Positions 23,865 through 50,782 of a stretch of 52,167 nt of DNA are shown here, piece after piece; position 1 is the stretch's first letter, and each line of letters starts with the position of its first letter. The notes under the pieces were generated by a model. The model was not told the DNA's origin. It ran no database searches and was given only the letters and a program-made list of their open reading frames with translations. The stretch covers positions 1 through 52,167 of the forward strand of contig NIUT01000082.1 in the NCBI GenBank assembly GCA_002254365.1. Reading direction: 5' to 3'. The translations under genes and the position numbers were made by a program. The stretch is from Nitrospira sp. UW-LDO-01 (GTDB lineage: Bacteria; Nitrospirota; Nitrospiria; Nitrospirales; Nitrospiraceae).

Positions 23865-25592
23865 ATGGTGATCTTTCGGCGATTCCTGCCGTTCGTTCGC
23901 CCCTACATCCCTCGCCTATTACTGGCCGGACTTCTCGTGACCGGAGTGGCTCTCATCAACCTTACCTTGGTCCGGCTGGCCGGGACACTCTGGGACGTCA
24001 TCACCGTTCAACATGACGCTGACAAGATGACGCGCTCCATCGGGCTGTTCCTCGGCCTGGTGATTCTCCAGGGGCTCTGCTCGATGGGCCATAGTTACCT
24101 CACCGCCTGGGTCTCCCAGACCGTCGTCGCTGACTTTCGTAAACATCTCTTTGGGCATCTCCAAAAGCTGACGGTCAGCTTTTTCGCTCGCCGACGCACA
24201 GGAGAATTACTCTCCCGGTTGATGTCCGATGTCACCGTCATTCAATCCCTCGTCACAGAAGCTCCCATCGATGGGGTCAAACAACTCGTGACCTTCATCG
24301 GCGGCATTACGTTCCTCCTCTTGATGAATTGGAGGCTCTGCCTCCTGATTCTTGTCCTGCTCCCGCTGTTGGTGGTCGTCTCAAAAATGTTCGGCCGACG
24401 ACTGAAATCCCTGTCGACCTCGATTCAAGACCACATGGCTGCACTCAGCACCCTCACCGAAGAAGTCATTTCCGGCATTCGCATCGTCAAGTCCTTCGTT
24501 CAGACAGAACGGGAACAGACCCGTTTTGCTGATCAGGTCGAGCAGACACTGCACCAGACGCTCCGTCGAGCCGGCATCATGGCCGTCTTCATTCCGGTGA
24601 TCAGCCTGCTGACCTTCTCATCGGCCACCGCCGTCCTGTGGTACGGAGGTCGCCAGGTCATCGACGGTGTGGTCACGCCGGGTGATCTCTTCGCCTTTGT
24701 ACTCTTTGCCGGCATCTTGATTGGTCCCTTCAGCTCAGCAGCCAAGATCTTTACCCAGATCAAGGAAGCTCAAGGTGCGACCGAGCGAGTCTTCGAGATT
24801 CTGGATGCCAAGCCGGAGATCGACGATCGACCAGACGCGCAGCCGCTCGGGACAATCGCAGGGCACGTGCGGATGGAAGACGTCACCTTCAGCTATGACA
24901 CCCGTCATCCAGTGCTTGCTCACCTGTCGTTTGAGGCGAAGCCTGGTGAATTGGTCGCCTTCGTCGGGCCAACCGGCGCCGGGAAGACCACAGTGATCAA
25001 TCTCCTGCATCGGTTCTACGATCCCATAGAGGGACGCCTGACCATCGACGGACGAGATCTGCGGGATGTGACCCTCGACAGTTGGTATCGACAGATCGCG
25101 CTGGTGCCGCAGGAGACCATCTTGTTCGGAGGCACCATCCTCGACAACATACGCTATGGGAACAGAGAGGCGAACGAAACCGCGGTAGTAGAGGCCAGCC
25201 AAGCGGCCCATGCACACGACTTCATCACAAACTTGCCGGATGGGTACCAAACCGTGGTGGGCGAGAAGGGGGTCAATCTGTCCGGCGGACAGCGCCAACG
25301 AGTCGCGATCGCTCGAGCCGTTTTGAAGAATCCTCGTATTCTCTTACTCGATGAGGCCACGTCATCTCTCGATACCGAGTCGGAACGGTTGGTGCAGGAA
25401 GCCCTCCAACGCCTCATGGAAGGGCGGACGACCTTTGTTGTCGCCCACCGGCTGTCGACCATCCAACGCGCCGACCGAATTCTGGTTTTGGACAAGGGGC
25501 AGTTGGTGGAGGAAGGCACGCACGCACAATTGATGGAACGCAAGGGACTGTACCACTACCTCTACACCATCCGGCTCAACGAACCCGCGTAA
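23865..25592 (+). CDS. msbA: MsbA-like ABC exporter (fused membrane and ATPase domains)
   Basis: A 575-residue half-transporter with about six membrane helices in residues 1-310 and a complete nucleotide-binding domain. Walker A GPTGAGKTT, Q-loop LVPQETILFGGTILDNIRYGN, signature LSGGQRQRVAIARA, Walker B ILLLDEATSSLD and H-loop VAHRLST are all intact. It fits the MsbA/lipid-flippase group, in which a homodimer moves lipid A-core across the inner membrane. Neighbours do not confirm the substrate, so multidrug or other lipid export remains possible. It is a useful contrast to the degenerate ATPase domain at 43137. Confidence 0.85.
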   Translation: MVIFRRFLPFVRPYIPRLLLAGLLVTGVALINLTLVRLAGTLWDVITVQHDADKMTRSIGLFLGLVILQGLCSMGHSYLTAWVSQTVVADFRKHLFGHLQKLTVSFFARRRTGELLSRLMSDVTVIQSLVTEAPIDGVKQLVTFIGGITFLLLMNWRLCLLILVLLPLLVVVSKMFGRRLKSLSTSIQDHMAALSTLTEEVISGIRIVKSFVQTEREQTRFADQVEQTLHQTLRRAGIMAVFIPVISLLTFSSATAVLWYGGRQVIDGVVTPGDLFAFVLFAGILIGPFSSAAKIFTQIKEAQGATERVFEILDAKPEIDDRPDAQPLGTIAGHVRMEDVTFSYDTRHPVLAHLSFEAKPGELVAFVGPTGAGKTTVINLLHRFYDPIEGRLTIDGRDLRDVTLDSWYRQIALVPQETILFGGTILDNIRYGNREANETAVVEASQAAHAHDFITNLPDGYQTVVGEKGVNLSGGQRQRVAIARAVLKNPRILLLDEATSSLDTESERLVQEALQRLMEGRTTFVVAHRLSTIQRADRILVLDKGQLVEEGTHAQLMERKGLYHYLYTIRLNEPA

Positions 25593-41642: not shown

Positions 41643-43088
41643 TTACTTAGCGGCAGGCGCTGCCACCTTCGGCGCGAACATTTCAAACAGACTCGGCTCA
41701 CGCTCCAGATAGTCAGGTGGGAAGAAGTTGAATCGCCGCCACAGTTCGTACCAGAGCGGAACACGATTCATAATCACCCAACCCAGCACCTTTGTTCCTT
41801 GTCTCACCTGAGCTTGCTCAGGCCATGGTTGAGGGTCATCTGGGTCCGGAACCACCCAGAATCGATAGTTGCCCTTCCCATCATCGATCTGGTCAACTAC
41901 CTTGATGATACCTCCACGAGTACCGGCCATTAAGCCAGGCCAAGCGGGCAAGGGAATAGCGGGAACTCCGAAGAAGAGGATCCGCACCTTGCGCCCAGGC
42001 TTCAGAAGTGGAGAATCCAACCCTTCAGCCATCATCTCAATGGCCGGATCAGCGGCAAGAGGAGAAATGGTGACGAGATTCTCTCCCTGCTTCACCGTCT
42101 CGTTGATGCCGACTTTATTCATCTTGACAACGGTGCCGTCCATCGGCGAGTAGAGTTTTGCCGCTTCAATACGCTGTTGGACCCCCTGTTGCCGATAGGC
42201 AATGTCCGCCAGCGATTCGGTCGCCTTCGCAGCTTCAGCAACCGCGGAATCGCGGGATGCAATCGCATCCATCAACCTCTGGTTGACATCCGCTGAGACT
42301 TGATCACGGCCAAAGCTCAGTGATGACCTAGCCTGCTCCGCAGCCTGCAAACTCGCCTGTGCCGCCTGCAAGCCTGCCTTGGTCCCGATCTCGGTTTGGA
42401 TCGTCAACTCAAGTTCACGTTGGGAGACCAACCCTTCCCGAACCAGTTGCCGATGGCGGTCGACATTGAGTTGAGCTGTGTGCACGTCGATCTTGTACTG
42501 CTCAACCTTCTGTTGAGCCTCACGCACTTTATTGTCTGCCTCAACAACCCGCGCCTCTGCCGAAGGAACAGCAGCCTGGACCAATTTCTTCATCTCACCG
42601 ATTCGTCGGTTCAACTGGTCTGCCCTGGCCAATGCCGCCTGCCTGGTTTTTTCCAAGGCGTCTTTCCTCTGTTCGAAGAGAGGAAGGATCTCCGGCGCCA
42701 TAAAGGTCGGATCGTAATCCTCTAGCTCGCCGACCAATTCGCCCTTCTTGACCTTGACACCTTCATAAATGTGCCAAGCCTTGATTCGTCCGGTAATTCG
42801 AGATTCGATGTTCTGGGGACGATCATAGGGAGTATAGGCAGAAACCTTGCCCGTCGCTTGAATCGTTTGTGTCCAAGGAACAAATTCCAGGACGATGAGA
42901 AACAAGAGAAGAATCGTAAGAATGGCACGAGATGCCGTAAACATCCCTCTCGGGATTTGTACCGCCTGCCAGCAAGGCAACTTCGCCAATGCCGGACCTT
43001 GTTCAATCGTGATCGCTTCCAAGCCGACCCCTCGTTGAACCAGCGCACGCTCACCGCTACTATCATGACCGCGACCTAGGCTAGCCAT
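41643..43088 (-). CDS. HlyD-family periplasmic adaptor protein
   Basis: A 481-residue membrane-fusion protein. A single N-terminal membrane segment (ASRAILTILLLFLIVLEFV) follows a 50-residue cytoplasmic start. The periplasmic part has a lipoyl half (RITGRIKAWHIYEGVKVKKGELVGEL), a very long coiled-coil hairpin (about residues 130-330) and the second lipoyl half (KLYSPMDGTVVKMNKVGINETVKQGENLVTISPL). It should bridge the inner-membrane transporter at 43137 to one or more TolC partners at 44955-49738. It lies last in the operon with the terminator 34 bases beyond. Confidence 0.9.
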   Translation of the reverse strand: MASLGRGHDSSGERALVQRGVGLEAITIEQGPALAKLPCWQAVQIPRGMFTASRAILTILLLFLIVLEFVPWTQTIQATGKVSAYTPYDRPQNIESRITGRIKAWHIYEGVKVKKGELVGELEDYDPTFMAPEILPLFEQRKDALEKTRQAALARADQLNRRIGEMKKLVQAAVPSAEARVVEADNKVREAQQKVEQYKIDVHTAQLNVDRHRQLVREGLVSQRELELTIQTEIGTKAGLQAAQASLQAAEQARSSLSFGRDQVSADVNQRLMDAIASRDSAVAEAAKATESLADIAYRQQGVQQRIEAAKLYSPMDGTVVKMNKVGINETVKQGENLVTISPLAADPAIEMMAEGLDSPLLKPGRKVRILFFGVPAIPLPAWPGLMAGTRGGIIKVVDQIDDGKGNYRFWVVPDPDDPQPWPEQAQVRQGTKVLGWVIMNRVPLWYELWRRFNFFPPDYLEREPSLFEMFAPKVAAPAAK

Positions 43089-43136: not shown

Positions 43137-44819
43137 TTACGCATGAGTATGATGCAACATGATCCGACGATCCGCATGATCCGTCAGGTTCGGATCGGTC
43201 GACACAAAGATCACCGACCAGGCCTCATCCTTCGAGCAAAGCCGTCGTAAAATCCGTTCACGCAATGATGGCTCAAGAGAATGAATCAACCCATCGAACA
43301 CGAGCACTTGCGGACGGCCAAGAATCGCACGGGCTAGAAGAATCTGCACCACGTGAGTTGGAGACAATGACTCCCCGAGTGAGGAGACATCGGACTTCAC
43401 TCCTCGCGGAAGGCCCTCGATATCTTCTTCCAACTCCGTGAAACGGAGCGCCCAGTTCAGGTCATCATAGGTGACATAGGAGCGGCCCATCACGATGTTC
43501 TCTTCGATCGTGCCCTTGACCAGGGACAATTGCGAGTCAATCATGACACTGCGGCACTGATTGATCGCGCTGGGATCGATGTAGCGAAGATCGACACCGT
43601 TATATTGCACAACGCCACCGGTCGGCACTTCAAGTCCACCAAGCACTCTTGCCAATGCCGTTTTCGCAGCCGTTGTTTTGGCATAAATCCCGAGCTTCTC
43701 ACCGGGGGCCACATCCAGATTGAAGCCATCGAACACCGCCACACCGCTGTGAACCAGACTCACCCCTTTGCAGGTCACGCGAACCCCTTGACCGAGATGC
43801 TTCGGCAGCGCCACGGTAGATTCGGTTGAGACGTAATCCTGCTCCTGACTAAACACCTCATCAAGGTGGGTGAGTGAAGCGAAGAAATAGTAGATGTACC
43901 CCATGTTCTTGATCAGCGAGTCAAAATTGATGACTAAGGCGCTGACCACCGCTTGGACTGCGACCAGCTGCCCAAGCGTCAATTGCCCTGAGGCCAAGAG
44001 CGAGCCTGAGATGGAGAGCGCACCGGCCTGTGCGATGGCTTGTCCGCCCACAGACCCGATATACTGCCGCACCAACACGGCGAACCGTGCTTTCCGAGCT
44101 TCGACATACTTGCTGACCAATGCATCGGTCTTCTGGATAAGAAATGGCTTACTGTCGGTCGCCTTTAATTGTAAGGCGTTCCGCGAAACCTCTTGGATGA
44201 AATTGAAGACATCGTATTTGGCGTGAGACATCTCCAGGGTTCTTTTCAGCGCACCACGCGAGAGCACGAAGAACGTGATCGCAAAGCCAGTCATGAGCAT
44301 GAGATTGTAAATGAGAAAATAGGGATGGTAGACGACCAGCATGATCATCCCGACCGATCCCCCGACCACCACGTTCAACAGATCGATGAGCAGCGTTGAA
44401 AGTGCCCGCTGCATGAAGACCGTTTCGATAAAGTAGTTCGCAATTTCCGGGCGAGCTCCTTTAAATCGATTACGAGGCAATGCCTCGACCATCGCCACCG
44501 CCACGCGGGCAAAGATTCTCCGCTGGACGACGTCCACGGCATAAAAATGGAAGGTCTTGAACAGACCGACGAACAGGAGCACCGAGAACATCACCGCCGT
44601 CAAGGTCCAAATCATGACCGGCTGAATCGCATAGGAAAAGGTGCTGACCAATTCCTGTACGGTCAACGGAATGATAAGAGAGAAAAAGCCAACCGCAAGG
44701 GCGTAGGAGAAAAGAAGACTCATAATCTTTTTCTCCGCCCGGATGGCCACGGACAACTGCTTCATCAGCGCTTCGAACAGGCCCCGATAACCTTCGCCCT
44801 GAGGTTCCTTCATGAGCAC
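43137..44819 (-). CDS. ABC exporter-type protein with degenerate ATPase motifs
   Basis: A 560-residue half-transporter: about six membrane helices in residues 30-315 and an ATPase-like domain from 345. The Walker A position reads IYAKTTAAKTAL (378-389); the three glycines are replaced and only Lys386-Thr387 remain. The signature LSGGQ is LSPTH (485-489). Walker B is VLVFDGLIHSLE, with the catalytic Glu changed to Gly510. The switch His is Thr541. The frame is intact, so the protein is maintained despite probable loss of normal ATP hydrolysis. It sits between the third TolC gene and HlyD. It may act as a passive channel, a scaffold or a partner of another ATPase. Confidence 0.85.
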   Translation of the reverse strand: MLMKEPQGEGYRGLFEALMKQLSVAIRAEKKIMSLLFSYALAVGFFSLIIPLTVQELVSTFSYAIQPVMIWTLTAVMFSVLLFVGLFKTFHFYAVDVVQRRIFARVAVAMVEALPRNRFKGARPEIANYFIETVFMQRALSTLLIDLLNVVVGGSVGMIMLVVYHPYFLIYNLMLMTGFAITFFVLSRGALKRTLEMSHAKYDVFNFIQEVSRNALQLKATDSKPFLIQKTDALVSKYVEARKARFAVLVRQYIGSVGGQAIAQAGALSISGSLLASGQLTLGQLVAVQAVVSALVINFDSLIKNMGYIYYFFASLTHLDEVFSQEQDYVSTESTVALPKHLGQGVRVTCKGVSLVHSGVAVFDGFNLDVAPGEKLGIYAKTTAAKTALARVLGGLEVPTGGVVQYNGVDLRYIDPSAINQCRSVMIDSQLSLVKGTIEENIVMGRSYVTYDDLNWALRFTELEEDIEGLPRGVKSDVSSLGESLSPTHVVQILLARAILGRPQVLVFDGLIHSLEPSLRERILRRLCSKDEAWSVIFVSTDPNLTDHADRRIMLHHTHA

Positions 44820-44954: not shown

Positions 44955-46547
44955 TTAATCACGCCCGTGATTTTTTCGCCCTGATAAGCCGGCGGAATGG
45001 ACCGGGTCACCATACTTGGCAAGCACGTTGTCGGCCAGCGGCTTGGACAAGGCGCCTCTCGCCCAGAGCATCCCCCCACGGGCCACGGCATAGTCGGCTT
45101 GCGCGCGGTAGAGCTCGTACGCTGCTTCGACCACCGCACGCTCTCGCAAGTTGACGAAGAGCACGCTCGTTGCCCCCATATGAAACCGAGCCCGTTCGCC
45201 TTCCTCCAACGTTTTCGCCAAGCGTAACGCCTCGGTCGCAGCTTTCACGCGGTCTCTGGCCCGCACGATGGCCGAGAGCCAGTTATCGACATCGATCGCG
45301 ACCTGCTTTTCGGTATAGATCTGCTTATAGGCCAATCGTTGCTGCTGCGCTTCTGCGTAGAGGACCTTTCCCCTGGCGGCCCGATTGAACAAGGGCATGC
45401 TGAAGTGAGCGCCAAAATGGTACCCGAACCCTCCGATCCAATAGATACCTCCGACCGCTGGCCCCCCTTCAAGACTGAGCTTGGGAAGTAGATTATTTTT
45501 TGCCAGCTTCAATTCGATGTTGTTTAATTTGGCCTCAATGTAGAGATCGCGCACTTCCGGCCGATCTTCCGTGGCTTCCACCTTAAAGTCCGCCACATCG
45601 TCTTCGCTCGGCAAGGGCGTTTCTCCCTGAAATTCCGGAGCCCATTCCGGGCGAGGTGTCACCGGCTCGCCGTTCTCCCAGAGAAAGAGGGCAAGCTTGT
45701 ATTGCTCATACTCCACCTTTCGTTGCGCGGCAATGGTTGCCTCGCGACGCCGCTGAACCTCTTCTCTGGCTTCGACCACGTCGATTGGAGCCACCGCGCC
45801 TGCTTTAGACTTGCCCTCAACCATGCGATAGCGGTCTTCCGCGACGGCCAGCGTCCGCTTCACCACATCGGCTTGCTTGACGGCCACCTGCCAATCCCAG
45901 TATTGCACCGCTCCGGCGAGATAGAGATCTTGCCGTTTCTGAGCCACCTTCACTTCGGCTTGCGGCCCGGCAAGCTCCGCCTGTTGGTAGGCCGCATACT
46001 CGTCGTTGATCATGAAGCCCCGCAGGAGATTCATCGAGCCACCGAAGATGATATTTTGCTGCGAATAGAACAGTTCGTTATCCGTCGGGATCGCCACCGG
46101 ACCGGTGCCTGCGCCGCAGGTGAAGGCTGGGCCCTCGCCACTGATCGCCGTACAATCCCCAAACCCGTGACGAATGCCGGTGAAGGCTTCAAGCCCATAG
46201 GGGTGGCCGATCTTGAGCATGGTATCGCTATAGCCAGCTTGCAAGGTATTCGGCACGCCACTCGCATTCGTCAGGTTATAGGTTTGAAACCGATCCACCT
46301 CGACCTCGTTGCGGAGCTTCGGCTCCCAGGCACCCAGCGTTTTCAGCATTTTTGCCCGAGCTTGCGCCCGTTCCAGCCCGGTCGCCCGGAGCAGCGGATG
46401 GGTCAACTCAATCCTGGCCAGCACTTCCTCAATGGTCAGAGCAGCGGTGCGGGTGGACTGTGCTTTCAACGCGCTTGAATCGTGCACCGGCTGCGCCAGC
46501 GCCGTCACCGGAAGCAAGGTCAGAATCATCAGTAATAGAGCGGCCAT
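44955..46547 (-). CDS. TolC-family outer membrane protein, third of three tandem paralogues
   Basis: A 530-residue outer-membrane factor. The signal peptide MAALLLMILTLLPVTALAQ is followed by HDSSALKAQSTRTAALTIEEVLARIELTHPLLRATG. The central helices include AELAGPQAEVKVAQKRQDLYLAGAVQYWDWQVAVKQADVV. The second half has ATEDRPEVRDLYIEAKLNNIELKLAKNNLLPKLSLEGG and LSAIVRARDRVKAATEALRLAKTLEEGER. TolC trimers form a beta-barrel and periplasmic tunnel. It shares most of these blocks with its two upstream neighbours. The ribosome-binding site AAGGAG stands 9 bases before the ATG. The stop codon lies within the dyad AATCACG-GGCGTGATT. Confidence 0.88.
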   Translation of the reverse strand: MAALLLMILTLLPVTALAQPVHDSSALKAQSTRTAALTIEEVLARIELTHPLLRATGLERAQARAKMLKTLGAWEPKLRNEVEVDRFQTYNLTNASGVPNTLQAGYSDTMLKIGHPYGLEAFTGIRHGFGDCTAISGEGPAFTCGAGTGPVAIPTDNELFYSQQNIIFGGSMNLLRGFMINDEYAAYQQAELAGPQAEVKVAQKRQDLYLAGAVQYWDWQVAVKQADVVKRTLAVAEDRYRMVEGKSKAGAVAPIDVVEAREEVQRRREATIAAQRKVEYEQYKLALFLWENGEPVTPRPEWAPEFQGETPLPSEDDVADFKVEATEDRPEVRDLYIEAKLNNIELKLAKNNLLPKLSLEGGPAVGGIYWIGGFGYHFGAHFSMPLFNRAARGKVLYAEAQQQRLAYKQIYTEKQVAIDVDNWLSAIVRARDRVKAATEALRLAKTLEEGERARFHMGATSVLFVNLRERAVVEAAYELYRAQADYAVARGGMLWARGALSKPLADNVLAKYGDPVHSAGLSGRKNHGRD

Positions 46548-46571
46548 CGAAGGATGCTCCTTAGTGCCGGA

Positions 46572-48158
46572 TTAATCGCGGCCAGGTTGTTTAAATCCGT
46601 ATGCACCAGCTGCCGTCAGCGGGTTTCCGTACTTGGCTAGCTCGCTTTCGGCCCACGGCTTCGACAGGGATCCCGTGGCATATAACATGCCCCCGCGGGC
46701 CACCGCGTAGTCGGCTTGCGCCCGGTACAGCCTGTACGCCTGCTCCACGACGTTCCGCTCACGGAGGTTGACGAAGAGCACAGTACTCGCACCCATATTG
46801 AAGCGGGTCCGCTCGCCCTCCTCCAACGTCTTGGCTAGTCGCAGGGCTTCCGTCGCCGCTTTTACCCGATCTCTGGCCCGTACGATCGCCGAGAGCCAGT
46901 TATCCACATCGATGCTGACCTGTTGTTCGGTATACAGCTGCTTGAAGACCAATTGTTGCTGTTCCGCCTCCGCGTACAGGACCTTCCCACGTCCTTCTCG
47001 TTGGAACAGCGGCATCTTAAATTGCGATCCCATGCGATAGCCGACACCCACAATCCAATCCGCAGGGGCCTCCATGCGGCCGCCGCTAAAATCGAACGTG
47101 GGGAGCAGGTAGTTCTTCGCGAGCTTGAGATCGATATTGTTCATCTGGGCTTCGATATAGATGTCTCGCACTTCCGGGCGATCTTCTTTCGCCGCCACTT
47201 TGTTCGCGGCGATTTCTTCCGCAGTCGGCAAGGGGGTCTCCCCCTGGAACTCCGGTGCCCATTCCGGACGCGGGGTCACAGGCTCGCCACCCTCCCAGAG
47301 AAAGAGCGAGAGCTTATACTGCTCATACTCAACGTTCCGTTGCGCCGCAATCGCCGCCTCCCGTCTGGCCTGAACCTCCTGATTGACTTCGATCACATCG
47401 AGCGGCGCGACCTTCCCACCCTTCGCCATTCCTTGAACCTGCACCAAGCGATCTTCGGCAACCGCCAACACACGCTTGACCATCTCAGCCTGCTTGACGG
47501 CGACCTGCCAATCCCAATATTGGACGGCCCCGGCGAGATAGAGATCCTGCCGTTTCTGGGCCACCGCGATTTCCGCCTGCGGACCAGCCAGTTCGGCCTT
47601 TTGAAACTCCGCATACTCGTCGTTCATCATGAAGCCACGCAGCAGATGGAACTCCCCACCGAAGATCATTTGCTGCAGGCTATAGAAGCCCAGCGGATCA
47701 GGGATATACCCAACTGTCCCTGCCTCGAGGCCGCCCGATCCGGTTCCATCAGGAATAGGGCCGAGAACACCCCGATCGCCAAAGCCGTTGCGGATCCCGC
47801 CCCGAACCGTGAAGCCCCAAGGGTGCCCCAGTTCGAGCTTGGTGTCGTTAAATCCCCCAGTGATTACCTCTTGGGGATAGAGGAAGTTATAGACTTGGAT
47901 GCGATTGACATTTGTCGTGTTCTTGAAGGTCGGTTCCCAGGCGCCGAGCGCTTTGAGGATTTTCGCCCGGGCTTGCATTCGGTCGACGCCCTGCGCTCGC
48001 AGCAGCGGATGGGTCAACTCAATCCGGGCCAGCACTTCGCTGATCGTCAGGGGTTCCGTGCGGACAGATTGCGCCTTTAACGCGCTGGTATCATGAACCG
48101 GTCCCGCCAGAGTTGTCACCGGAAGGAAGATCAGGATTATGAATAACAGAGCGGCCAT
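46572..48158 (-). CDS. TolC-family outer membrane protein, second of three tandem paralogues
   Basis: A 528-residue paralogue of its neighbours, with the signal peptide MAALLFIILIFLPVTTLAG. Shared blocks include VLARIELTHPLLRAQG, AELAGPQAEIAVAQKRQDLYLAGAVQYWDWQVAV, PVTPRPEWAPEFQGETPLPT, AIVRARDRVKAATEALRLAKTLEEGERTRFNMGAS and a C-terminal FKQPGRD. The variable portion (about residues 100-160) differs most and carries a Gly-rich loop GTGSGGLEAGTVGYI. The ATG at 48158 has AGAAGGAG upstream. The frame is open to 48293, but that extension overlaps the preceding gene. The spacing to the next gene is 24 bases. Confidence 0.9.
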   Translation of the reverse strand: MAALLFIILIFLPVTTLAGPVHDTSALKAQSVRTEPLTISEVLARIELTHPLLRAQGVDRMQARAKILKALGAWEPTFKNTTNVNRIQVYNFLYPQEVITGGFNDTKLELGHPWGFTVRGGIRNGFGDRGVLGPIPDGTGSGGLEAGTVGYIPDPLGFYSLQQMIFGGEFHLLRGFMMNDEYAEFQKAELAGPQAEIAVAQKRQDLYLAGAVQYWDWQVAVKQAEMVKRVLAVAEDRLVQVQGMAKGGKVAPLDVIEVNQEVQARREAAIAAQRNVEYEQYKLSLFLWEGGEPVTPRPEWAPEFQGETPLPTAEEIAANKVAAKEDRPEVRDIYIEAQMNNIDLKLAKNYLLPTFDFSGGRMEAPADWIVGVGYRMGSQFKMPLFQREGRGKVLYAEAEQQQLVFKQLYTEQQVSIDVDNWLSAIVRARDRVKAATEALRLAKTLEEGERTRFNMGASTVLFVNLRERNVVEQAYRLYRAQADYAVARGGMLYATGSLSKPWAESELAKYGNPLTAAGAYGFKQPGRD

Positions 48159-48181
48159 AGCAGGATGCTCCTTCTGTCGCA

Positions 48182-49738
48182 TTAATCGCGCCCCGGTTGC
48201 TTGAAGCCGTTCAGACCAGCCGCCGTCTTTGGATCGCCGTACTGCGCCAACGACTCTGTCGGCCAGGGCTTCGACAACAGTCCTCTCGCCCACAGCATGC
48301 CTCCACGCGCCACGGCGTAGTCTGCCTGGGCCCGATACAACTTGTAGGCTGACTCCACCACGTTGCGCTCCCGAAGGTTCACGAAGAGCACGGTCGTCGC
48401 CCCCATGTTGAAGCGTGTCCGCTCGCCCTCTTCCAGCGTCTTGGCCAAACGGAGCGCTTCCGTTGCTGCCGTTACCCGGTCTCTGGCGCGCACAATCGCC
48501 GAGAGCCAGTTGTCCACGTCGAAGCTGACTTGTTGCTCGGTATATTGCTGCTTCAACATCAATTGCTGCTGACCCACTTCCGCGGACATGATCTTCCCCC
48601 GGGCTTCCCGCTGAAACAGCGGCATCTCGAAGTGCAGCCCCGCCCGATAGCCGATACCCACAATCCAGTCCGTGGCACCCTGGGTCGGCCCCGCTTCCAC
48701 CGTCATCTTCGGCAGCAATTTGTTCTTGGCAAGCTTCAGGTCGATGTTGTTCTTCCTGGCTTCGATGTAAAGATCCCGTACTTCCGGCCGATCTTCCTTG
48801 GCTTCCACTTTATAAGCCGCAATCTCCTCTTCGGTCGGCAGCGGCGTTTCCCCCTGGAATTCCGGCGCCCATTCCGGACGCGGTGTCACCGGCTCATTAT
48901 TCTCCCAGAGATAGAGGGACAGCTTGTACTGCTCATACTCAATATTGCGTTGCGCCGCGATCGCCGCTTCTCTCCGCCTTTGCACTTCTTGGTTCGCCTC
49001 GACCAGATCGAGGGGCGCGACCCTCCCGCCCTTGGCTAACCCTTCAACCTGAGCCACACGGTCTTCCGCCACAGTCAAGGCGCGCTTCACCATATCGGCC
49101 TGCCTGACGGCCACCTGCCAATCCCAGTACTGCACGGCCCCGGCAAGATAGAGATCCTGGCGCTTCTGCGCCACCTTGATCTCCGCCTGCGGCCCCGCGA
49201 GCTCAGCCTGTTGATACTCGGCATTTTCTTCGTTGATCATCAGGCCTCGCAGCAGCTGGAACGACCCCGCGAGGATGATTTGCTGTTGCGGATAGAAGAG
49301 CTGCAGGTCAGGAATAATCGCCGTGAAGTTCTGAGTGACACGATCCCCGATGCCGTTGCGGACTCCTCCCTCGAACCGGAACCCTAAAGGGTGCCCGACC
49401 TCGAGCTTGGTATCGTTATAACCCCCTGTATTCATGTGCGGGAGAAACTGGGCCGTTGTCGTGAGATTCCACGTGTTATAGCGTTCAGCCTCGGTAATGT
49501 TCTTGAACGTTGGTTCCCAAGCTGCGAGTGCCTTCAGGATTTTTGCCCGGGCCTTCGTGCGCTCGGCGCCTGCCGCCCGGAGCAGCGGATGGGTCAGCTC
49601 AATACGGGCGAGCACCTCTCCGATACTCAAGGGTTCAGTGCGCGTCGACAGAGCCTTCACAGCACTCGAGTCGATGACCGGCTCCGCCATCGCGGTCATT
49701 GGCAGAATTGCTACCAGAGCCAACACCAGTGCGACCAT
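48182..49738 (-). CDS. TolC-family outer membrane protein, first of three tandem paralogues
   Basis: A 518-residue paralogue and first gene of the operon. The signal peptide is MVALVLALVAILPMTAMAE. It shares VLARIELTHPLLRAAG, ILKALAAWEPTFKNI, AELAGPQAEIKVAQKRQDLYLAGAVQYWDWQVAVRQADMV and RVTAATEALRLAKTLEEGERTRFNMGATTVLFVNLRER, and the C-terminus FKQPGRD. The start at 49738 is supported by GAGAGGAG upstream. A longer frame to 49882 would run into the LysR start. It is read divergently from the regulator with about 145 bases between them. Confidence 0.9.
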   Translation of the reverse strand: MVALVLALVAILPMTAMAEPVIDSSAVKALSTRTEPLSIGEVLARIELTHPLLRAAGAERTKARAKILKALAAWEPTFKNITEAERYNTWNLTTTAQFLPHMNTGGYNDTKLEVGHPLGFRFEGGVRNGIGDRVTQNFTAIIPDLQLFYPQQQIILAGSFQLLRGLMINEENAEYQQAELAGPQAEIKVAQKRQDLYLAGAVQYWDWQVAVRQADMVKRALTVAEDRVAQVEGLAKGGRVAPLDLVEANQEVQRRREAAIAAQRNIEYEQYKLSLYLWENNEPVTPRPEWAPEFQGETPLPTEEEIAAYKVEAKEDRPEVRDLYIEARKNNIDLKLAKNKLLPKMTVEAGPTQGATDWIVGIGYRAGLHFEMPLFQREARGKIMSAEVGQQQLMLKQQYTEQQVSFDVDNWLSAIVRARDRVTAATEALRLAKTLEEGERTRFNMGATTVLFVNLRERNVVESAYKLYRAQADYAVARGGMLWARGLLSKPWPTESLAQYGDPKTAAGLNGFKQPGRD

Positions 49739-49818
49739 GTGAGATGCTCCTCTCGTATACATTCGGCGGACGGCGCCCACAGTAGCAACCTCGTCTTCTT
49801 TTTTCAAAATAGATAAAA

Positions 49819-49856
49819 CGGATTTGTGATATCGATTAATCCGATGGTATAGTACC
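49819..49856. promoter_or_regulatory. Shared operator/promoter region between the TolC operon and the LysR gene
   Basis: CGGATT (49819-49824) and AATCCG (49838-49843) form an inverted repeat with a 13-base centre, as LysR-type regulators often bind. It overlaps a plus-strand promoter for the regulator (TTGTGA at 49824-49829, 18-base spacer, TATAGT at 49848-49853). A GGTA-TAG-TACC dyad covers that -10 box. A minus-strand TTAATC-17-TTATCT pair could serve the TolC operon. Confidence 0.5.
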
Positions 49857-49882
49857 GCCGCTCTCCCAAGGCTACGGGCCAT

Positions 49883-50782
49883 ATGGATTGGTTAAACTAT
49901 CATCACTTGTTATATTTCTGGTCCGTTGCCAAACACGGAACCGTCACTAAAGCCTGCGAAGAGCTCCGGCTTGCTCAACCGACCGTCAGCGGGCAGATCC
50001 ATCTGTTAGAAGCGACCTTGGGCGAAAAGTTGTTCATTCGAACAGGCCGGCGTCTGGTGCTGACGGAGATGGGCCAGCTCGTGTTCAAGTACGCGGAGGA
50101 CATCTTCGCGACCGGGCAAGAGCTGATGAATACCGTCAGGGGGCAGGAGAACGGACAGCCGACACGTCTGGTCGTGGGCATTGCCAACGCCGTTCCTAAA
50201 CCACTCGCCACCCAACTGCTCAAGTCCGCTCTCAGGCTCTATAAACCGACACGCTTAATCTGCCAAGAGGATAACCTGCACCAGCTTCTGACCGATCTGG
50301 CCGCTCATCGTTCCGATTTGGTGATCGCTGATACTCCGGCTCCACCTGGAGTAAAGGCACATGCGTACAACCACCCGTTGGGCGAATCAGGCGTCACGCT
50401 GTTCGCCACGGCAAGACTGGCTGCCCAGTATCGTCGCGACTTTCCCCACTCACTCCGCAACGCGCCGCTCCTCCTCCCCACCTCGAGTGCGGTGCTTCGT
50501 CGCTTGATGGACCAATGGATGGTGAACCACGGCGTCCACCCCACCGTGGTGGGCGAGTTTGATGACAGTGCGACTCTCAAAGCCTTCGGCCAGGATGGCC
50601 ATGGGATCTTCCCCGGCGCCACTGTGATCGAAAAGGAGATCTGTCGCCAATACCAGGTGCAAGTGGTTGGACAGCTGGACGGACTCATCCAACATTTCTA
50701 CGCGATCACCGTGGAACGGCGACTGAAACACCCCGCTGTGCTTGCGCTTGTCCGCACCGCCCGACGCGAGTTGCTCAACTGA
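49883..50782 (+). CDS. NhaR-like LysR-family transcriptional regulator
   Basis: A 299-residue LysR-type protein. The N-terminal helix-turn-helix has LNYHHLLYFWSVAKHGTVTKACEELRLAQPTVSGQIHLLEATLGEKLF, typical of NhaR-type members, then a linker helix and an effector domain (about residues 90-295). NhaR controls ion or envelope-stress genes in E. coli. Here the divergent position suggests control of the TolC-ABC-HlyD operon. Its start lies about 30 bases after the predicted TATAGT box. The effector is unknown. Confidence 0.9.
   Translation: MDWLNYHHLLYFWSVAKHGTVTKACEELRLAQPTVSGQIHLLEATLGEKLFIRTGRRLVLTEMGQLVFKYAEDIFATGQELMNTVRGQENGQPTRLVVGIANAVPKPLATQLLKSALRLYKPTRLICQEDNLHQLLTDLAAHRSDLVIADTPAPPGVKAHAYNHPLGESGVTLFATARLAAQYRRDFPHSLRNAPLLLPTSSAVLRRLMDQWMVNHGVHPTVVGEFDDSATLKAFGQDGHGIFPGATVIEKEICRQYQVQVVGQLDGLIQHFYAITVERRLKHPAVLALVRTARRELLN

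Follow-up and report, generated by a model that had tools for sequence, protein, structure and literature searches.

A HlyD-TolC operon of Nitrospira retains an ABC exporter protein without almost all of its ATPase motifs, within a family showing graded loss of the ATPase domain

ABC exporters are generally regarded as ATP machines. The locus described here raises the question of what such a protein does, and what could drive it, once nearly all of its catalytic ATPase motifs have gone. Within a 52,167-nucleotide stretch of DNA from Nitrospira sp. UW-LDO-01 (contig NIUT01000082.1; the whole stretch is called the window), a degenerate ABC exporter gene sits in an operon with genes for a HlyD-family adaptor and TolC-family outer membrane proteins. 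The protein, its remnant motifs and its neighbors are as follows.

41643..43088, minus strand: HlyD-family membrane fusion protein, 481 aa (PF13437; TIGR01843; conserved neighbor)
43137..44819, minus strand: degenerate ABC exporter half-transporter, 560 aa (open reading frame; ABC_tran match; AlphaFold model; match to HlyB, 8dck)
43140..43802, minus strand: pseudo-nucleotide-binding domain (pseudo-NBD), residues 340-560 (weak Pfam match, alignment, model; dN/dS 0.036)
43194..43202, minus strand: H-loop remnant STD, residues 540-542, switch His replaced by Thr541
43269..43280, minus strand: D-loop remnant SLEP, residues 514-517 (alignment)
43290..43307, minus strand: Walker B remnant VLVFDG, residues 505-510, Asp509 kept, catalytic Glu replaced by Gly510
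43353..43367, minus strand: signature remnant LSPTH, residues 485-489, in place of LSGGQ (alignment)
43533..43535, minus strand: Q-loop position, Gln replaced by Ser429 (alignment)
43659..43682, minus strand: Walker A remnant AKTTAAKT, residues 380-387, glycines lost, Lys386 and Thr387 kept (alignment)
43845..44762, minus strand: membrane domain, six-helix ABC exporter fold, residues ~20-325 (model, structure match; retained alone in NBD-less relatives)
44124..44207, minus strand: second intracellular loop (ICL2)/coupling helix, residues ~205-232 (conserved in the window protein, decayed in both NBD-less lineages)
44955..46547, minus strand: TolC-family outer membrane protein, copy 3 (PF02321, 120.8 bits)
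46572..48293, minus strand: TolC-family outer membrane protein, copy 2 (PF02321, 98.9 bits)
48182..49882, minus strand: TolC-family outer membrane protein, copy 1 (PF02321, 98.9 bits)
49883..50782, plus strand: divergent LysR-type regulator (PF00126, PF03466)

The degenerate gene, read on the minus strand from 44819 to 43137, is an open frame of 560 aa with zero internal stops; an ATG two codons inside it, behind GGGGG, may be the true start. A sequence-only reading of the locus had held that almost every catalytic ATPase motif was lost from an intact frame, and both statements are borne out. Walker A, which should read GxxGxGK[ST], has lost its glycines (AKTTAAKT), and LSGGQ, the catalytic Glu and the switch His are all absent (LSPTH, Gly510, Thr541); the Q-loop Gln, not on that reading's list, is missing too (Ser429). 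The qualifier "almost" is warranted, as Lys386 and Thr387 of Walker A and Asp509 of Walker B survive, and weak nucleotide binding thus remains possible. As had also been stated, GPTGAGKT, LSGGQ, LLLDE, SSLD and a switch His are all present in the MsbA-like exporter that the window encodes at 23865. The lesions recur in 35 orthologues from separate assemblies, so they reflect neither chance nor a sequencing fault.

In fold and gene neighbors the protein is like a type I secretion ABC protein, but with the motor missing. An AlphaFold model of the monomer (input, 68 family members; mean pLDDT 91.7, pTM 0.84) has the six-helix ABC exporter membrane domain that to the earlier reading looked normal, and the model and its structure match meet the definition of an ABC exporter membrane domain joined to an NBD fold. 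The best solved-structure match is HlyB from the HlyB-HlyD complex (8dck; TM 0.86, 20% identity), and the gene lies in the HlyD and TolC cluster that would be expected of such a protein. Its sole ABC_tran match in Pfam is weak, at 34.8 bits, and it scores far below the cut-offs of the NCBIfam type I secretion models; the curated TIGR03375 gives 110.7 bits against a cut-off of 693.1.

The degenerate state is shared and fixed. All 35 of 35 close Nitrospira orthologues (the 80-97% class) carry SPTH and FDG, with STDP as well in those that are not truncated, and no close relative with intact motifs came to light. A scan of genome contigs found that in a second Nitrospira class (54-60%) every sequence covering the motifs is without them, and several copies have lost the Walker A Lys as well (TTTTTTRM); the lesions are fixed in every Nitrospirota representative examined. 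Over 164 orthologue pairs (dS 0.1-1.2), median dN/dS was 0.036 for the pseudo-ATPase domain versus 0.084 for the membrane domain. Common lesions combined with a lower dN/dS than that of the membrane domain indicate, at the level of sequence, that the Nitrospira pseudo-ATPase domain is maintained under strong purifying selection and is not decaying, which supports the retained pseudo-ATPase that had been proposed, with ATPase activity itself unmeasured. Across Nitrospirota representatives, mean pairwise identity is 56% for the pseudo-NBD versus 53% for the membrane domain, and the former has lineage-specific conserved stretches such as LRRLCSK. In a Bacteroidota group that keeps Walker A only, the corresponding values are 33% versus 52%. 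From this comparison, the dead domain seems to have been put to new use in Nitrospirota and to have eroded in Bacteroidota.

The family to which the protein belongs occurs in Nitrospirota, Bacteroidota and Pseudomonadota. Against the family profile, members score ~220-900 bits, in matches that span either the membrane domain or the whole protein, and ordinary ABC exporters ~110-140 bits, in matches restricted to the second half. Of 396 Nitrospirota genomes, 111 have a close relative of the query, and the profile matches 76 of 296 Bacteroidota and 5 of 299 Pseudomonadota genomes. Members are also found on sphingomonad plasmids, where some records say ATP-binding of proteins without a recognisable motif; the public records for L270, L271 and L347 read "ABC transporter ATP-binding protein", again with no recognisable ATP motif. 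Among copies with at least 4.5 kb of flank, a HlyD-type adaptor gene and a TolC-type gene both adjoin 91 of 95, and a LysR gene is likewise found next to the operon in other Nitrospirota and in Pseudomonadota. We found no viral relatives of the family and no description of it in the literature, our coverage of which was partial, so that this absence is weak evidence.

Several features of the surroundings were recorded along the way. Throughout the window's Nitrospira clade, three tandem TolC paralogues (44955-49882 in the window) accompany one ABC-like and one HlyD gene, the other copies being 65-70% identical to TolC3; the 57-60% class has a single TolC gene. In most Nitrospiraceae purE and purK flank the operon. 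Next to the operon at four Nitrospirota loci (L333-L335 and L106) and on one Sphingobium plasmid (L270) is a DabA gene (PF10070), mostly accompanied by DabB-like genes, which makes an inorganic-carbon theme possible; such neighbors are absent from the other annotated sphingomonad plasmids viewed. Three degenerate ABC-like genes (L104, L105 and L111) have no HlyD or TolC gene nearby, and the first two lie near a histidine-kinase-like ORF.

When we graded 68 family representatives by motif state ("motif-intact" or "active" meaning that motifs are present, activity not having been shown), 15, all from Bacteroidota, proved to have both Walker A and the catalytic Glu, with an altered signature, and 14 of these 15 also keep the switch His. 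Walker A is kept in a further 22 from which the Glu, signature and His have gone; it too is lost in 27, including all Nitrospirota and Pseudomonadota representatives; and four have no ATPase domain. Intact motifs are confined to distant Bacteroidota, at ~23-30% identity. Motif-intact members (L182, L194, L221-L235) bear an N-terminal extension in proteins of ~700-840 aa, and that of L182, the only one tested, matched no sequence in Pfam or PDB. A tree constrained to unite all degenerate rows was not rejected (AU p 0.356), leaving one early loss of catalysis tenable and the choice between single and several losses undecided; rooting on distant ABC exporters involved very long outgroup branches.

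The series ends in deletion. Two lineages, a Nitrospirota genus and a Bacteroidota clade, have dispensed with the whole ATPase domain and kept the membrane domain, HlyD and TolC. The family copies concerned are L201-L204 and three further ones from a single genus (L333-L335), recovered in a search of distant Nitrospirota; the Nitrospirota copies sit in LysR-adaptor-TolC-TMD clusters, and by a count of rows the domain-less form occurs in ~25 of 151 genomes of one Bacteroidota family. The two groups lie apart in the tree, and a single origin was rejected (AU p 9e-52). Both end in the TMD-NBD linker after TM6, with no NBD-like frame before the next gene. Assembly breaks can be ruled out as their source, the open frames of 333-346 aa lying inside contigs with the next gene close; two short copies at a contig end (L338 and L339) were left out of the count. 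Conserved membrane-helix sites are kept in NBD-less Nitrospirota (19/19 in TM3-4, 23/23 in TM5-6) and largely so in NBD-less Bacteroidota (18-20/21 and 22-26/31). ICL2 coupling sites, which the full-length dead Nitrospirota proteins compared have kept, number only 3-4 of 6 in the former and 1-3 of 5 in the latter. Small as these site counts are, they suggest that selection holds the transport domain and releases ATP coupling once the NBD is gone.

Taken together, these observations indicate that the operon can do its work without ATP hydrolysis by its own ABC protein, ATPase activity being unmeasured: judged from sequence, the catalytic apparatus is gone and the loss fixed, the fold persists together with the operon, and some relatives have no ATPase domain at all. 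In the scheme that we propose, the window protein would occupy the inner membrane as one of three parts, HlyD and TolC being the others, of an export system descended from an ATP-driven exporter and no longer hydrolysing ATP. We infer that its membrane domain alternates access, exports into HlyD and TolC and is driven by a gradient, the coupling ion most likely being the proton. The Nitrospira pseudo-ATPase domain, docked through the coupling helices, would clamp the dimer or gate it on the cytosolic side, and the membrane domain probably still feels it. With activity, substrate and energy source all unmeasured, we give this ATP-independent, probably gradient-driven exporter about an even chance of being right.

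A gradient-driven mode is plausible because it has precedents. SbmA is an ABC-type membrane domain without an NBD that is proton-driven and is proposed to have arisen when an ABC exporter lost its NBD and coupling helices (PMC13316013), and the membrane domain of MsbA alone, in an artificial truncation, shows proton coupling and moves ethidium using the pH gradient (PMC4979069). Candidate coupling residues in the family, the ion itself being inferred, are a TM6 Glu found in nearly all members, Glu56 of TM1, which is invariant in Nitrospirota only, and His165. This His lies in the turn between TM3 and TM4 on the periplasmic side; no degenerate group varies at it, whereas only 10 of the 15 motif-intact proteins have it. 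The window's own clade has Gln289 in place of the TM6 Glu, so no acidic ladder like that of SbmA is shown. The broader proposal is more tentative and falls somewhat short of an even chance in our judgement: tripartite exporters of one family, spread over several phyla, would have had their ABC pump converted stepwise to ion-gradient drive, giving TolC systems a fourth motor beside ABC, RND and MFS. The stages of conversion would still be extant: intact motifs, Walker A only, a dead domain, and a domain deleted at least twice.

The main rival is a purely structural role, in which the protein would anchor and gate a HlyD-TolC duct in the membrane without any transport cycle, substrates being periplasmic or diffusing. 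The conserved fold and operon linkage and the strong constraint on the pseudo-NBD suit such a platform, and the conservation of the His165 turn in degenerate groups might suit a docking face. The membrane-helix sites, however, are kept throughout even where the NBD has gone, seemingly beyond what an anchor needs, and we consider this role unlikely, though not to be set aside.

A dead subunit might instead pair with an intact ABC protein or recruit an NBD or another ATPase encoded elsewhere. Heterodimers in which one site is degenerate are common (PMC7756269), YddA has its TMD and NBD on separate genes (PMC13316013), and the window's genome contains other ABC half-transporters. We found no intact ABC partner within the window operon, a partner elsewhere in the genome not being excluded. 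Many Nitrospirota genomes carry two tandem copies (by coordinates, ~20 have tandem ABC-like pairs), but in all seven of the pairs read (L097-L103) both are degenerate, so the operon holds no active partner in the tandem copy either. One of the tandem copies (L340, 5382-7481) is spread over two overlapping frames, one for the membrane part and the other for the pseudo-NBD, and represents either a split gene or a frameshift. Nor did we find a second family member in the NBD-less Nitrospirota genomes or an NBD gene near the Bacteroidota genes that are without one; in those lineages decay has reached the coupling helix, on which binding of an NBD depends, and the window protein itself has lost the signature that a partner's site would require. 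The loss is wider than the sequence-only reading could see, and its occurrence in three phyla, the dead tandem pairs and two NBD deletions with the operon kept favor ATP-independent over partner-driven function. Of the structural, gating or partner-driven role suggested there, the general idea is thus supported and the partner-driven part disfavored; a partner acting in trans is improbable, though not excluded.

Slightly less probable again is a nucleotide sensor that binds ATP without hydrolysing it and acts as a switch or clamp. Lys386, Thr387 and Asp509 would permit this, and most Bacteroidota relatives have a full Walker A without the Glu, signature and His; against it, the Walker A glycines are gone from the window protein, the Lys too from some relatives, and the NBD-deleted members manage without any sensor. 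Recent pseudogene decay, for which only the motif loss speaks, is rejected with near certainty, contradicted as it is by the intact orthologue frames, the dN/dS of 0.036 and conservation across genus and phylum.

Database annotation names several family members ATP-binding. With ATPase domains that run from intact to absent and the other two parts of the operon constant, the ATP-independent exporter that we favor belongs to a graded series in which the role of the ATPase domain can be asked directly: what it contributes to an exporter of three parts, and by what route a primary pump turns secondary.

Among known systems, the closest likeness is to HlyB of the HlyB-HlyD-TolC type I secretion system, in fold and in its operon with HlyD and TolC proteins; unlike HlyB, the window protein has lost all catalytic motifs, with only the three residues noted above remaining, has no N-terminal C39-like domain and falls short of the type I secretion models. 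TM287/288, TmrAB and MsRv1273c/72c likewise have a degenerate NBD in an ABC exporter fold but keep one working site, whereas in a homodimer of the window protein, or in the tandem pairs, both sites would be dead. The tripartite MacB, RND and MFS pumps share the plan of inner-membrane protein, adaptor and TolC, yet each has a known motor, an ATPase or a proton-driven RND or MFS fold, where the window protein has an ABC fold without one. SbmA and BacA (SLiPT) resemble the NBD-less relatives in having an ABC-type membrane domain minus NBD and coupling helices. The window protein keeps both a pseudo-NBD and coupling helices and so meets neither SLiPT criterion, the first being met only by L201-L204 and L333-L335, and no equivalent of the SbmA glutamate ladder is shown in it. 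SbmA, the one precedent found, is an importer not described in any HlyD-TolC system, whereas the family described here adjoins HlyD and TolC genes.
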